This document shows positions 20,684-27,256 of a DNA stretch of 42,123 bases, piece by piece. The number at the start of each line of letters is the position of its first letter. Position 1 is the stretch's first letter. The translations under genes and the position numbers were made by a program. The stretch lies in assembly GCA_023245195.1 (NCBI GenBank), contig JAHFKU010000004.1, positions 1-42,123 of the forward strand. The letters run 5' to 3'. This stretch comes from Candidatus Staskawiczbacteria bacterium (GTDB lineage Bacteria; Patescibacteriota; Minisyncoccia; Minisyncoccales; Staskawiczbacteraceae). Under the pieces are notes generated by a model. The model was not told the DNA's origin, did no database searches, and saw only the letters and a list, made by a program, of their open reading frames with translations.

Positions 20684-20769
20684 GCGCGGGTGGCGAAACG
20701 GCAGACGCACTACCTTGAGGTGGTAGCGCTCGAAAGGGCATGCAGGTTCGACTCCTGTCCCGCGCACCA
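20684..20769 (+). tRNA. tRNA-Leu(GAG), CCA encoded
   Basis: Acceptor GCGCGGG/CCCGCGC, anticodon arm CTACC-TTGAGGT-GGTAG, variable arm, T-arm GCAGGTTCGACTCCTGT. Confidence 0.93.
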
Positions 20770-20914
20770 AAAGGAGGCGAACCCCAAAGGGGGTCGGGGA
20801 AAAGGATTTTCCCCGTGTAGGAAATACTTCAAAACCGAGGGTTTTGAAAGAGGAGTGTAGCGACGATTGGTTCTAGTCCCGCGAAACGGGGCGGACTCCT
20901 GTCCCGCGCACCAA
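20770..20914. repeat. Structured tRNA-adjacent element A, ending in a duplicate tRNA-Leu 3' end
   Basis: Downstream copy GACTCCTGTCCCGCGCACCAA (20894-20914) is identical to 20750-20770; contains two hairpins shared with element B. Confidence 0.8.
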
Positions 20915-20929
20915 TTCAACTATAATTAG

Positions 20930-21002
20930 GCGCGATTAGCTCAGTGGCCAGAGCATCCCGTTTACACCGGGGGGGCCGTAGGTTCGACTCCTACATCGCG
21001 CA
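20930..21002 (+). tRNA. tRNA-Val(TAC)
   Basis: Acceptor GCGCGAT/ATCGCGC, anticodon arm TCCCG-TTTACAC-CGGGG. Confidence 0.9.
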
Positions 21003-21013
21003 CCGAGCAACCT

Positions 21014-21085
21014 GCCGTGGTAGCTCAGTGGTAGAGCATTCGCCTGAAGAGCGATTGGTCGGGTGTTCGATTCACCCCCGCGGCA
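21014..21085 (+). tRNA. tRNA-Phe(GAA)
   Basis: Acceptor GCCGTGG/CCGCGGC, anticodon loop CTGAAGA. Confidence 0.88.
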
Positions 21086-21102
21086 CAGGAACATTCAAAA
21101 AT

Positions 21103-21174
21103 GCGGGCGTGGTATAGTGGCTATTATACGTCCTTGCCAAGGACGAGATGGCGGTTCGATTCCGCTCGCCCGCT
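21103..21174 (+). tRNA. tRNA-Gly(GCC)
   Basis: Acceptor GCGGGCG/CGCCCGC, anticodon arm CGTCC-TTGCCAA-GGACG, U73. Confidence 0.92.
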
Positions 21175-21175
21175 C

Positions 21176-21220
21176 AGATAAAAAACAATCCAAATTTACT
21201 TTGGGTTGTTTTTTTATCTT
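21176..21220 (+). terminator. Hairpin between tRNA-Gly and element B
   Basis: AGATAAAAAACAATCCAAA...TTTGGGTTGTTTTTTTATCT. Confidence 0.8.
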
Positions 21221-21222
21221 GA

Positions 21223-21339
21223 CGAGCGGAATCGAACCGCAAAAGGGGTCGGGAAAAAGTATTTTTCCCGTGGCGAAATTCTTCAAACCGAGGGGTTTGA
21301 AAAAACCCAGAGGGTTCTAGGTTTGCATTCCGCTCGCCC
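21223..21339. repeat. Structured tRNA-adjacent element B, bounded by inverted and direct copies of the tRNA-Gly 3' region
   Basis: CGAGCGGAATCGAACCGC (21223-21240) is the exact reverse complement of 21151-21168; ATTCCGCTCGCCC (21327-21339) duplicates 21159-21171. Confidence 0.85.
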
Positions 21340-21343
21340 ACTT

Positions 21344-22073: not shown

Positions 22074-22107
22074 AAAAACCCGCGCCATTCGGCGCGGGTT
22101 TTTAATT
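22074..22107. terminator. Bidirectional terminator between convergent genes
   Basis: AAAAACCCGCGCC-ATTC-GGCGCGGGTTTTT. Confidence 0.9.
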
Positions 22108-25100
22108 ACTGGCTGGCTGCTTTAAATAAAGCTCCTATTTGCGCCCATGGGCCGCCAGATGATAATGAGAAATTAGCTGGCAGGGGAGAAGTATTATTAA
22201 TCACCCTGTATTCCGTTGCCAAAGGTTGATGAGAAGTTCCCTCTTCGGTAGCAATAGCCAACATCGTAAAACCTGAACCGGGACTGGTAACAATATTGCT
22301 GACATCGTGGGTGCCGGTTCCAATAACCAAATCTCCGGTTACCGTAGGAGTCAAATTACCAGATGAAGGAGTTGTACCAGAACCCGAAACTCCAACTACG
22401 CTATCAAGAGGTGAAACTCGATCAACTCCGGAAAATTCTGAAATGGTTACTGACAGTTGAGTACCCGAAACCCCATTACTTAAGGTTACGGTATCAGTTC
22501 CTCCAATAACATTTTTAGCATAAAAAATGGCGGTAAAAGAATTACCTGAAGTTAGCTGGATATTGCCCGCCCGAGTATAGGCATTTCCTCTGCTATCAGT
22601 TACTGCTATCGTGCCTCCATTTGGCCAACCCGAGGCCGTGACTAAGATAAAGTTTCCTTGCGTAACGGAAGAGGTAAAGGTAGTAGCTAACGACGAAGCG
22701 CCACTGGTAATATTGGAAAATTTTTGCACCAAATTAATGGGCGCGGCAACATTATTTACCGTCACATTAACGATAATGGCCGTAGCGGTGTTGCCGGCAT
22801 TGTCTCTGGCAACAGCGGTTAACACATGGCTTCCATTGGTAGTTGTGGCGCTGTCCCAGGAAATAGCATAGGGACTTACCGTATCTTCAGTCCCCAGATT
22901 ATTGCCATCAAGCTTGAATTGAACACCGGCTACGCCAACATCATCAGAGGCATTGGCAGAAACCGTAATCGATCCGGTTACGTTTGCTCCATCAAGAGGC
23001 GCGGTCAAAGAAACGGTAGGAGGAGTGGTATCGCTGGTGATAATGGCAGAGGCTTCATTTGAGACAGGACCAATATTGCCAGCGGCATCTTGGGCCGTTA
23101 TCAGGTAGTAATATGTGCCGGCCGGGGCAAAATCAGTATAAGTCAAACCTGTGGTTTGGCCGATTTTATTGGCTGGAGCAGCCGTAAAACCAGAAACTGT
23201 AGAACGATATATGTTATAGGCGGTAACACCAATGTTGTCGGTAGCAGCACTCCAAGTTAATACGGCATTTCCAATATTTCCGCTACCAGCCAAAGAACCG
23301 GGATTTGAAGGAGGAATAGCATCAATGAAAGCCAAACCCGTTAGAGTAAAGACGCTATTGGCAGGAGCTACAAAAGAAAATGCATTGCCACTTACGGCTA
23401 TATCGCTTCCTTTTTGGAAATTAGACGATAAATCAGTTTTATAGAATTCCAATGCAGTTAGAGAAGGCAAGTTCTGCAGAGTCGTGTTAAAGGTTACAGC
23501 GCTTCCCGTATTTTGTCCAACAATGGTAAATCTTCCATTGGTTTGGTTGTAAAACGCATATTCAGTCACATTGCCATTTGATTCTACGGCACTGATGCGA
23601 ACTGATCCTGGCGGAACAAATTTGAAAATTTGTTCATTCTGGTAAAATCCTAAACGGGGGGTGTAGGTATGCGTCAAACTATTATAGGCTAGGGGAGCTG
23701 GACCGAAACTATCATCATTGCCAGGCGCAGAACCAAAACCATTTAAAATCGCGTGGTTAAATACGCTATCAAAACCTTCCCAAATCATCAGGCCCGAAGG
23801 GTTTCCAGCCAGCAAAGAAAACGCATCGGTGGCAGTAGTATATTCTGTCATCCAGAAATTTTTATTGGGATAGGCAGAATTTTTGATGGCATTATCGGCT
23901 CCGCCCGTGCTGCTTGAATAACTATGAAAAGCAAAGTGATCCGTTTTATTAACCACCACGCTATCGGCCATCATTTCGGGCATGTAAGTATTTACCCCAG
24001 AATTAACATCGGCGGTATTAGGTCCCATGAAGCGGATATCGCCAAGGCCCATAGTATCCAATTTATCCGAAATTTTATGAAGCAGTCTCACATACTGCGT
24101 GGAACTAAGGGTTGGTCCTTCATTGTGGCCCCAATCTGATTCATTAAAGGGATCCAACATGCCAAATTGGACATTGGCGGTATTTCGTGCGTAATACACC
24201 AAGGTGGTAATCATTTCCACGGCTTCGTCTTCTTGAGCTGTATTAATCGTGGCTCCTCCCATCCATGACGGTGTTATCCCCATGAAACTTAAGGCAATGG
24301 TGGAATTAAACCCTTTTTGATTTAAGTAGTGAAGCGTGCCCCATAAATTCTGGAATTTAGTGTTTGAATAAAGCGCGTTGTAGTAAGTCCAATTTGGGGT
24401 GTTGGGATCGGCATTATCATTCGTTGATTCCCAATCTTCCATATCAAAAACCACTCGCCAAGTAGTTTGGCCCATGGTGTCGGCTAACATATCTATAGCG
24501 GCAGCAGAATTATCATTGTTCCAGCTAAGAGAATTGATATTCGTACCAAAACCATCTATGGTTTGGAATTTTTGAGAACCATTAACGGTTAGTGCGGTTC
24601 CAGTTGCGGTCGTTGTGAATGTAACATCTCCGGAAGTGGCTAAGTTACCCGCGGCATCACGTGATTTAACACGATAATGGTAAAGGGTTGATGCGGCCAG
24701 CCCACCTAAAGAAATCGAATGACTTGTTAGTAAGCTTACATTTAACGCTGATGATGATCCATAGGAAATAGTGGTGCCATATTCTACTTGACTATCAGAG
24801 GCTTCATTGGTTGTCCAAGTAATCGTTGCGCCGGTAGTGGTAATTGAAGATGCCGCAACCGAAGAAATTATCGGCGGGGTAGTATCGGTATTGTTTACCG
24901 TTACATTCACATTGGCAGCGGTAGCCGTATTTCCAGCCGCATCGCGGGCAACGGCAGTTAGGACATGGGATCCATTGGATGTGGTGGTTGTATCCCAACT
25001 AATAGAATAAGGCGAAGTAGTATCTTCGACTCCCAGACTAGCCCCATCAAGCTTGAATTGCACCCCAACTACGCCGACGTTGTCGGAGGCACTAGCAGAA

Positions 25101-27076
25101 ACCGTGACGGCGCTTCCTGACACCGTAGATCCATCAAGGGGAGCGGTGAGGGAAACGGTGGGCGGGGTGGTGTCGGGGGGTGCCGCAGTAGTAAAAGTGC
25201 CATCAGAAGAAACTGCTAGCACACCACTACCATCCTTAGATAGTATTTCATAATGATACAAAGTACTAGAAACAAGCCCGCTTAATGTCTGCGAATGAGA
25301 AGTTATCAAAGTTGTATCAAGTGTTGTTGATAAATCGTAATTAATCGTCGTGCCATACATTATTTGAGAATCAGCGAGAACATTCGTATTCCAAGAAATA
25401 ACAGCCGAATTGTAAGTGATTGAAGCGACATTAATTCCCGAAATAATGGGAGGATTATTAACCATCACACTAACATCGCTTGTGATAGCCGTATTCCCTG
25501 CAGCATCCCGAGCAACGGCAGTTAGGACATGGGATCCATTGGTGACAGCAGTAGTATTCCAGGTGATGGAATAGGGACTGGTGATGTCTTCGGTTGATAA
25601 GTTAGCTCCATCAAGCTTGAATTGGACACCGACGACGCCGACGTTGTCAGAGGCGGTTGCTGAAACGCTGATACTTCCACTCACTGTTGTCCCATCAAGA
25701 GGCGCCGTCAAAGAGACTGTAGGCGGAGTAGTGTCAGGGGGCGGAAGCGTAGTAAAAGTATTATCTGATGAACTCGCCAATACTCCTGTTGCATCACGAG
25801 ATAAAACTTGATAATGATAGGTAGTATTTTCAACAAGCCCGCTAAGTAATTGAGAATGAGAAGTGACTAATGCTGGATCAAGAACTGTAGAGGAATCATA
25901 GGGCAATACCGTGCCATAATTAATTTGAGAATCTGCGGGAACATTGGTGGTCCAATTAATGAGCGCTGAAGTTTGTGTAATTGAACTTGCAGAAATTCCT
26001 GAAATAAGAGGAGGGTTGCTTACGGTCACATTCACATTGGTAGCGGTGGCCGTATTTCCAGCGGCATCTCGGGCAACGGCAGTTAGGACATGGGATCCAT
26101 TGGTGATAGTCGTGGTATTCCAGGTGATGGAATAGGGACTGGTGATGTCTTCGGTTGATAAGTTAGCTCCATCAAGCTTGAATTGGACACCGACGACGCC
26201 GACGTTGTCGGAGGCGTTAGCAGAAACGGTAACAGTGCTTCCCGAAACGGTAGAACCATCAAGGGGAGCGGTGAGGGAAACGGTGGGTGGGGTGGTGTCA
26301 GGGGGACCATTTGGCTTTACTTCAAATCCCACCCAATTCCATTGAACGGCTCCGGTTCCGGCAGCATCAAAATTGATGGTAACTGGGGTTCCGACAACTG
26401 AAGTTGAAGCCGATTTATAGGCACTCAAACCAGAAATATATCCTGCCAAGGTAAAGGCATCTTTTTGATCAGTGGAAGTGGGAAGGCCGGCGGCACTCCA
26501 ATCATTTGATACGCCAAAACCCAATGAACCAGCCGTTGTAGATGTATAGATGATTGGCGTAATATTATTGGTCGTAGAACTACCCTCGCCTACGGCGCCG
26601 ATAGGACTTACAGGATTATGCCCGGTAATAACATAGACCTTAATTGATATTCGTTGATTTTGATCAGTGATAGTTGCGGTAACGGTCATTCCAGTTCGAG
26701 CCGTAGGCAAGATTGCATAAAAGGCGCTGGCTTCTCCATCTTGCGCACCGGTATCTCCCTTACTTCGTTCGGCAATAAGGTTCCAAGTGAGCGCCGCTCC
26801 ATTATTAGTTATAGCGATCGTAGGATTTGAACCTAAAGCTGAATCAGAAGATACCATGGCCAAGAGCAGAGAATTTGCCGGCGGACTAAATGAAGCCGTC
26901 GTGCGGGGATCACTGCCGCTGGTCCTAGCCGGAGTAGAAGGATCAATTGCCAGTGCCGCTTGCGCTATCTGAAAAGGACTGAAAATAAAAACAAAAGACA
27001 GCCCTAGTAATGCTGCCAAAAATGTGGTGCGCGCAAATGTACGTTTCTTTTTCTGTTTAAGAAAACTCACGTCCAT
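22106..27076 (-). CDS. Very large secreted multidomain protein: beta-sandwich N- and C-terminal domains, repeated Ig-like and Fn3-like modules, internal GH30-like glycoside hydrolase domain
   Basis: N-terminal signal/TM (RTTFLAALLGLSFVFIFSPFQIAQA); 'DTTPPTVSLTAPLDG' repeats; 'NGSQKFQTIDGFGTNINSLSW', 'FGMLDPFNESDWGHNEGP', 'NFWMTEYTT'; M at 27076 preferred. Confidence 0.8.
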   Translation of the reverse strand: MDVSFLKQKKKRTFARTTFLAALLGLSFVFIFSPFQIAQAALAIDPSTPARTSGSDPRTTASFSPPANSLLLAMVSSDSALGSNPTIAITNNGAALTWNLIAERSKGDTGAQDGEASAFYAILPTARTGMTVTATITDQNQRISIKVYVITGHNPVSPIGAVGEGSSTTNNITPIIYTSTTAGSLGFGVSNDWSAAGLPTSTDQKDAFTLAGYISGLSAYKSASTSVVGTPVTINFDAAGTGAVQWNWVGFEVKPNGPPDTTPPTVSLTAPLDGSTVSGSTVTVSANASDNVGVVGVQFKLDGANLSTEDITSPYSITWNTTTITNGSHVLTAVARDAAGNTATATNVNVTVSNPPLISGISASSITQTSALINWTTNVPADSQINYGTVLPYDSSTVLDPALVTSHSQLLSGLVENTTYHYQVLSRDATGVLASSSDNTFTTLPPPDTTPPTVSLTAPLDGTTVSGSISVSATASDNVGVVGVQFKLDGANLSTEDITSPYSITWNTTAVTNGSHVLTAVARDAAGNTAITSDVSVMVNNPPIISGINVASITYNSAVISWNTNVLADSQIMYGTTINYDLSTTLDTTLITSHSQTLSGLVSSTLYHYEILSKDGSGVLAVSSDGTFTTAAPPDTTPPTVSLTAPLDGSTVSGSAVTVSASASDNVGVVGVQFKLDGASLGVEDTTSPYSISWDTTTTSNGSHVLTAVARDAAGNTATAANVNVTVNNTDTTPPIISSVAASSITTTGATITWTTNEASDSQVEYGTTISYGSSSALNVSLLTSHSISLGGLAASTLYHYRVKSRDAAGNLATSGDVTFTTTATGTALTVNGSQKFQTIDGFGTNINSLSWNNDNSAAAIDMLADTMGQTTWRVVFDMEDWESTNDNADPNTPNWTYYNALYSNTKFQNLWGTLHYLNQKGFNSTIALSFMGITPSWMGGATINTAQEDEAVEMITTLVYYARNTANVQFGMLDPFNESDWGHNEGPTLSSTQYVRLLHKISDKLDTMGLGDIRFMGPNTADVNSGVNTYMPEMMADSVVVNKTDHFAFHSYSSSTGGADNAIKNSAYPNKNFWMTEYTTATDAFSLLAGNPSGLMIWEGFDSVFNHAILNGFGSAPGNDDSFGPAPLAYNSLTHTYTPRLGFYQNEQIFKFVPPGSVRISAVESNGNVTEYAFYNQTNGRFTIVGQNTGSAVTFNTTLQNLPSLTALEFYKTDLSSNFQKGSDIAVSGNAFSFVAPANSVFTLTGLAFIDAIPPSNPGSLAGSGNIGNAVLTWSAATDNIGVTAYNIYRSTVSGFTAAPANKIGQTTGLTYTDFAPAGTYYYLITAQDAAGNIGPVSNEASAIITSDTTPPTVSLTAPLDGANVTGSITVSANASDDVGVAGVQFKLDGNNLGTEDTVSPYAISWDSATTTNGSHVLTAVARDNAGNTATAIIVNVTVNNVAAPINLVQKFSNITSGASSLATTFTSSVTQGNFILVTASGWPNGGTIAVTDSRGNAYTRAGNIQLTSGNSFTAIFYAKNVIGGTDTVTLSNGVSGTQLSVTISEFSGVDRVSPLDSVVGVSGSGTTPSSGNLTPTVTGDLVIGTGTHDVSNIVTSPGSGFTMLAIATEEGTSHQPLATEYRVINNTSPLPANFSLSSGGPWAQIGALFKAASQ

Positions 27077-27256
27077 AATTTTTTTATAATAATTATTTTT
27101 AAAAAATTGGCTTGGCAATTTTTAAAATCAAATAATTATTATTTTTATTTACTTTGAATCATTATACCACGGGCTTGAAAAATGATGCAAATCTTAAATG
27201 TCCTAACTAGAATTGAATTACAAAATAACTAAGCTTGATGGGAAAATTTTGTACAT

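Follow-up and report, generated by a model that had tools for sequence, protein, structure and literature searches.

Phages, ICEs and other integrative elements are inserted at the ends of tRNA or protein genes, as Tn5253 is at rbgA and SGI1 at trmE, where the gene is restored by a copy of its end and direct repeats flank the insertion. The elements described here have the same habits, but they are ~100-300 nt long and without genes, one core is used at many unrelated targets and an inverted copy of the target lies beside that core. As short, non-coding, multicopy and non-autonomous hairpin repeats they are also similar to MITEs and to the REP/BIME sequences that are mobilised by RAYT, although the elements here had no RAYT association, and to our knowledge neither MITE nor REP/BIME families have a target-derived inverted copy or a gene-end duplication. 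Integron attC sites and CTX-phage attachment sites act via a folded DNA strand with hairpins and bulges, and the small palindromes of the Rickettsia palindromic elements and of other small bacterial mobile sequences are tolerated in coding and RNA genes. Compared to attC and CTX sites the arms here were target-specific and no integrase core site was recognised, while the Rickettsia palindromic elements are located inside reading frames and those described here are located at gene ends, which they duplicate. Integron integrases use single-stranded partners (PMC4792948), and the small mobile sequences of bacteria have been reviewed (PMC2229807). IStrons and group I and II introns would likewise render insertions harmless, although the core here is too small, one copy is antisense and the conservation is DNA-like. 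The elements are new in that traits of small palindromic and of gene-end integrative elements, both of them known, are combined with an inverted arm that is derived from the target, at many targets unrelated to one another, and as far as was searched no known mobile element explains the layout of direct and inverted gene-end copies. A literature search of open-access papers, preprints excluded, found no description of such a family, and Rfam contained no match to the core family, a lax search giving weak and unconvincing matches only, tRNAs apart.

The stretch of DNA that was analysed, referred to as the window, consisted of 42,123 nucleotides from a Candidatus Staskawiczbacteria bacterium and includes, in order, rplS (L19), tRNA-Leu(GAG), element 1, tRNA-Val, tRNA-Phe, tRNA-Gly(GCC) and element 2, with both elements and their host tRNAs on the forward strand. 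The common layout was the gene with Y1 (its whole end, often with a terminator behind it), X' (the first part of Y1 in inverted copy), the core and Y2 (the gene end again), where Y1 and Y2 denote the first and second gene-end copies of an element and are distinct from the Y1 transposase family. Element 1 follows tRNA-Leu(GAG) (20684-20769; ARAGORN and an Rfam tRNA match), whose 3' part from the T-loop break point J, between GGTTC and GACTCC, is Y1 (20750-20770) and is repeated exactly and directly as Y2 (20894-20914). Its X', identified by reading, is GGAGGCGAACC (20773-20783), an inverted match at 10 of 11 positions to the T-arm sequence GGTTCGACTCC, and an X' was present in 66 of the 71 tRNA elements considered below. 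The conserved core of element 1 (20783-20867; R1 model match 7.6e-24) includes stem 1, GGGGAAAA/TTTTCCCC (20796-20814), and stem 2, TTCAAAACC/GGTTTTGAA (20828-20848), both predicted by DNA folding and supported by covariation, and is followed by GGTTCTAG and a small hairpin (20869-20893), a T-loop mimic and insert common to tRNA-type elements, as the block recurs in others of that type.

Element 2 is located behind tRNA-Gly(GCC) (21103-21175; ARAGORN) and has a terminator-like hairpin between Y1 and X' (21178-21221), identified as an inverted repeat and from its fold. Its X' (21223-21240) is an exact 18-nt inverted copy of the T-arm at 21151-21168, its conserved core (21238-21319; R1 model match 3.5e-11) includes the start of a T-loop mimic, GGGTTCTAG (21312-21320), that was found by reading and recurs in tRNA elements, and its Y2, ATTCCGCTCGCCCACT (21327-21342), gives the tRNA-Gly 3' end a second time, exactly so over 13 nt (21327-21339, repeating 21159-21171). 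The two direct repeats and the 18-nt inverse reported in the preliminary description were thus present as given, and so was the lack of a recombinase, no protein being encoded between the gene-end copies. That description had noted an inverted T-arm copy for element 2 and none for element 1; the former was borne out and the latter was not, given the match at 20773-20783, and with an X' in each the two elements are built on one plan. Further along the window, the reverse strand at 22106-27118 encodes a probable surface protein of 1670 aa, in which Big_7 and fibronectin type III domains were found.

The core is ~85 nt long and consists of two hairpins with conserved joints, of which elements 1 and 2 are copies. 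About a dozen more copies were found when the genome was searched with element 1, and a covariance model built from 13 cores gave 19 matches in this 787-kb genome (two overlap at one tRNA-Pro site), which places the homology noted earlier between the two interiors beyond chance. Of the 39 genomes searched with the model, from 24 genera, 21 had matches, which fell in 10 of the genera. The core pattern occurred in at least 114 stretches of GTDB genomes, nearly all from Patescibacteria among the matches listed (Staskawicz-, Yonath-, Taylor-, Colwell-, Niyogi-, Nealsonbacteria and others), and in one stretch of viral contigs. At a tRNA-Arg gene (L020) the core was circularly permuted, and an AT-rich array of GAATATACAAAT-type repeats (L025, 960-1110) was observed behind the permuted element, with similar motifs near other elements of genome G000.

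A set of 191 distinct elements across Patescibacteria was used for positional analysis. Seventy-one of these were located no more than 130 nt behind a tRNA 3' end, all in sense orientation and none antisense, at tRNAs for 15 amino-acid types, where position alone would by our own estimate give ~0.4%; the enrichment behind different tRNAs that a covariance model had been proposed to reveal was therefore found. At these sites J falls in the T-loop. The flanks were specific to the adjacent tRNA, as had been described for the window, in that the direct copy fitted its own tRNA better than did elements at other tRNAs in 70 of 71 cases and the inverted copy in 66 of 71. An X' that is target-specific at so many tRNAs suggests that the inverted arm was written from the target, either at insertion or in an ancestor of the site lineage.

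Elements were also located at the ends of protein genes, which we take from sequence recognition to be gyrB, rpsI, rpmB, pgk, rplK, uvrC and a peptide-binding-protein gene, and at a glycosyltransferase-like gene the element occupied the same point in several genomes. One copy was at the 5' end of typA and antisense to it. When an initial 91 elements were compared with mismatched pairs, the 99th percentile of the latter was exceeded by 34 of the direct copies and 47 of the inverted ones; for many non-tRNA elements the direct copy was not clear. Cores from the same genome were alike at unrelated targets (0.88 for rpmB and tRNA-Glu, 0.88 for pgk and rpsI) and their flanks were at 0.4-0.5. Many elements included a terminator-like hairpin. 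A second class had the core in the 5' leader directly upstream of ATG with no visible duplication. Cores of this class start CTGGAAGGGGG or TCGGAAGGGGG, are often preceded by a TATTAT-like box (L031, L052, L053, L056, L062, L063, L071, L075 and similar) and have right ends that recur (CTCTGTGACTTCAATG or TAGTATTACCACTATG, for instance) and no gene-end duplication.

Occupancy was patchy at orthologous sites inside one genus. Among the orthologues read, the gyrB site was occupied in G000 and G034 only and the rpsI site in G000 and G013 only, most others having a plain gene end, and empty sites were also seen for the glycosyltransferase-like gene. Comparison of orthologous loci, which had been suggested in the preliminary description, revealed empty sites for both tRNAs of the window as well: the G050 operon rplS-tRNA-Leu-Val-Phe-Gly has no element behind tRNA-Leu and one behind tRNA-Gly, and in that of G007 the Leu element is present and a plain terminator follows tRNA-Gly.

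The two coding copies at protein-gene sites were compared in 18 pairs, which were clear cases that had been picked and aligned by hand. Y1 and Y2 were homologous from J onward and encoded nearly the same peptide with different codons (synonymous differences at 93.8 of 121.5 sites, nonsynonymous at 51.2 of 508.5), giving a synonymous divergence of 0.77 and a pN/pS of 0.13, and in several copies the two were identical or near-identical. X' was closer to Y1 than to Y2 in 74 cases and to Y2 in 3. In the gyrB gene of G000, Y2 was equal or nearly so to the native ends of relatives, and in its rpmB gene the loop was the short SGKR form of other species in Y1 and, in Y2, the TGKKER form of the clade to which G000 belongs. 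These two cases indicate that, there at least, Y1 is probably foreign and was brought by the element from another species, with Y2 the displaced native end. In G008 it was Y1 rather than Y2 that looked native, which suggests that the donor direction is not uniform, and for rpsI and pgk the native copy was ambiguous. A rule that Y2 is always the native end was rejected in view of the opposite tendency in G008. Drift of Y1 in place after duplication was set aside, short of full exclusion, because the synonymous divergence is large despite empty sites in close relatives and because the rpmB Y1 has the loop of another clade.

From these sequence comparisons we consider it likely that the elements form a mobile, DNA-folding and gene-end-duplicating family. 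They are best read as non-coding and non-autonomous, with target copies in both orientations, and as having moved, at least sometimes, between species together with a foreign gene end; the case for movement comes from the comparison of occupied and empty sites, in assemblies where no excised form was seen. The earlier proposal of a mobile non-coding element that targets tRNA 3' ends was supported by this, although the targets extend to the ends of protein genes. Insertion would occur at the break point J close to the gene end (the T-loop for tRNAs), where a folded single strand of the core would be joined, X' would arise as the other end of the joined core copied ~8-25 nt of the target, and ~35-100 nt would be duplicated, leaving the gene intact and the insertion nearly harmless. 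Occupied alleles would then spread among species by recombination, with a foreign Y1 carried in and the native Y2 displaced downstream; the enzyme involved presumably acts in trans. The fold-back copying step, taken by itself, is offered tentatively, as we hold it somewhat less probable than its negation. A broader reading is more speculative still, namely a mobile DNA hairpin with no enzyme of its own that settles at almost any gene end and spreads as a gene-end swap with a recoded, functional replacement end. Such a hairpin could use nearly any gene end because its own ends would be written afresh from the target at each insertion, in forward and in inverted copy, and the recoded swap, if true, would be the natural equivalent of a recoded-rescue homing element.

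If the family is of this kind, Patescibacteria, with their notably small genomes, would have an abundant class of mobile elements by which essential genes and tRNAs are edited at their ends yet left unbroken. It would provide a test case for target-templated insertion and for folded-DNA recombination sites that do not depend on one sequence, and displaced gene ends, as records of gene exchange among uncultured species, would allow such exchange to be traced. For the annotation of these genomes it also matters that tRNA fragments and gene ends that occur twice can be flanks of elements and not pseudogenes or assembly errors.

A folded circle that undergoes recombination is the chief rival to the fold-back scheme; X' and Y1 would lie on either side of the core in such a circle and pair as a near-perfect stem, much as in folded single-strand attachment sites. 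More generally the elements might be attachment-site scars or satellites of integrase-driven elements, where a recombinase inserts a circle that carries the gene end, attL restores the gene and attR is the fragment. The logic is that of the elements that target rbgA or trmE (PMC8571831, PMC8409611), the gene-end direct repeat and the intact upstream gene were both found and the far better pairing of X' with Y1 than with Y2 would be expected if the circle folds. Known integrases are, however, site-specific, whereas here a single core family occurs, with arms specific to each target, at tRNAs of 15 types and at numerous protein genes that are unrelated, and the intervals between copies encode no protein; this explanation is considered unlikely.

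Mobilisation by a known system, be it a TnpB/IS605 guide RNA, RAYT/REP or a reverse transcriptase, is improbable, as none of the three tracked the element distribution across the 39 genomes. The size is REP-like, and genes of the Y1/RAYT type were present in 26 of 39 genomes and reverse transcriptases in 24 of 39. The distribution of Y1 transposases did not follow that of the elements, with none found in the element-bearing G004, G005 and G012 and 15 copies in the element-free G031, and no core was near any of the 16 Y1/RAYT loci checked, so RAYT/REP mobilisation was rejected. The TnpB-type domain PF07282 was found in one of 39 genomes, which was not element-rich, and a TnpB guide RNA with Y2 as the guide was rejected as the element-rich genomes have no TnpB. 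Reverse transcriptase (PF00078) had no match in G000, G013, G026 and G038, and mobilisation by such an enzyme was rejected on the same grounds, though such an enzyme may have acted in the past. As in MITEs there were many short copies and empty sites, but constant terminal inverted repeats in common with an autonomous transposon were not found, the ends being target-derived and site-specific, nor was an autonomous relative noticed. The single RAYT-type gene of G000 (L393, C32, 2367-3297; L028) has flanking hairpin repeats of its own, TTGCGAGGT...ACCTCGCAA, which appear to be a separate REP family unrelated to the core and are found elsewhere in G000 too.

An RNA element was also considered, either a structured non-coding RNA or a small intron or ribozyme through which Y2 would be joined to the upstream gene, in view of the homology of Y1 and Y2 from J onward, of the peptide that they have in common, and of a compact core with invariant joints in which circular permutation is tolerated. 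In 200 aligned cores, 95% of stem cells were Watson-Crick with many double changes, and mismatches were G-T in 44 and A-C in 37 cases compared to 46 and 6 in the tRNA acceptor stems of the same loci (Fisher p=2.7e-5, from small counts and related sequences). With G-T and A-C equally rare, selection seems to treat both strands alike, and the structure noted in the preliminary description, which was recovered as the two-hairpin core, appears to be conserved as DNA and not as RNA. Minihairpins of GCGAAGC/GCGAAAGC were found in the 3' part of the core in 58 of 191 elements, compared to 1.8 in shuffles; GCGAAGC is a very stable DNA minihairpin and has been used as such (PMC10527192, PMC4686876). 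Elements 1 and 2 have good predicted folds as DNA and also as RNA, and folding energy alone is thus not decisive. The antisense typA copy, the absence of an Rfam match and the completeness of the gene end in Y1, which a terminator often follows, also argue against an RNA, as does an in-frame stop in the Y2 of the peptide-binding-protein gene of G005, from which translation of Y2 is not required, and an RNA element is regarded as very unlikely. Regulatory or 3'-processing elements that are immobile and kept vertically, as the cores in 5' leaders beside start codons and the terminator-like hairpins of many elements might suggest, are the least probable of all given the patchy occupancy inside one genus and the similar cores at unrelated genes.

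Two other arrangements were observed in these genomes. The 3' end of pgk in G010 (L338) has a different insertion, without a core of the gene-end hairpin family, in which a new pgk end is followed by an ORF that is PemK/MazF-like by eye, a long imperfect palindrome and then the displaced pgk end in a long copy, and a second pgk fragment in G004 was similar. In G000, two halves that resemble another tRNA-Ser enclose a complete tRNA-Ser(GGA) (L027, contig C4, ~1100-1420 of the reverse strand), with the inverted repeats TTTTTAGTG/CACTAAAAA as flanks.
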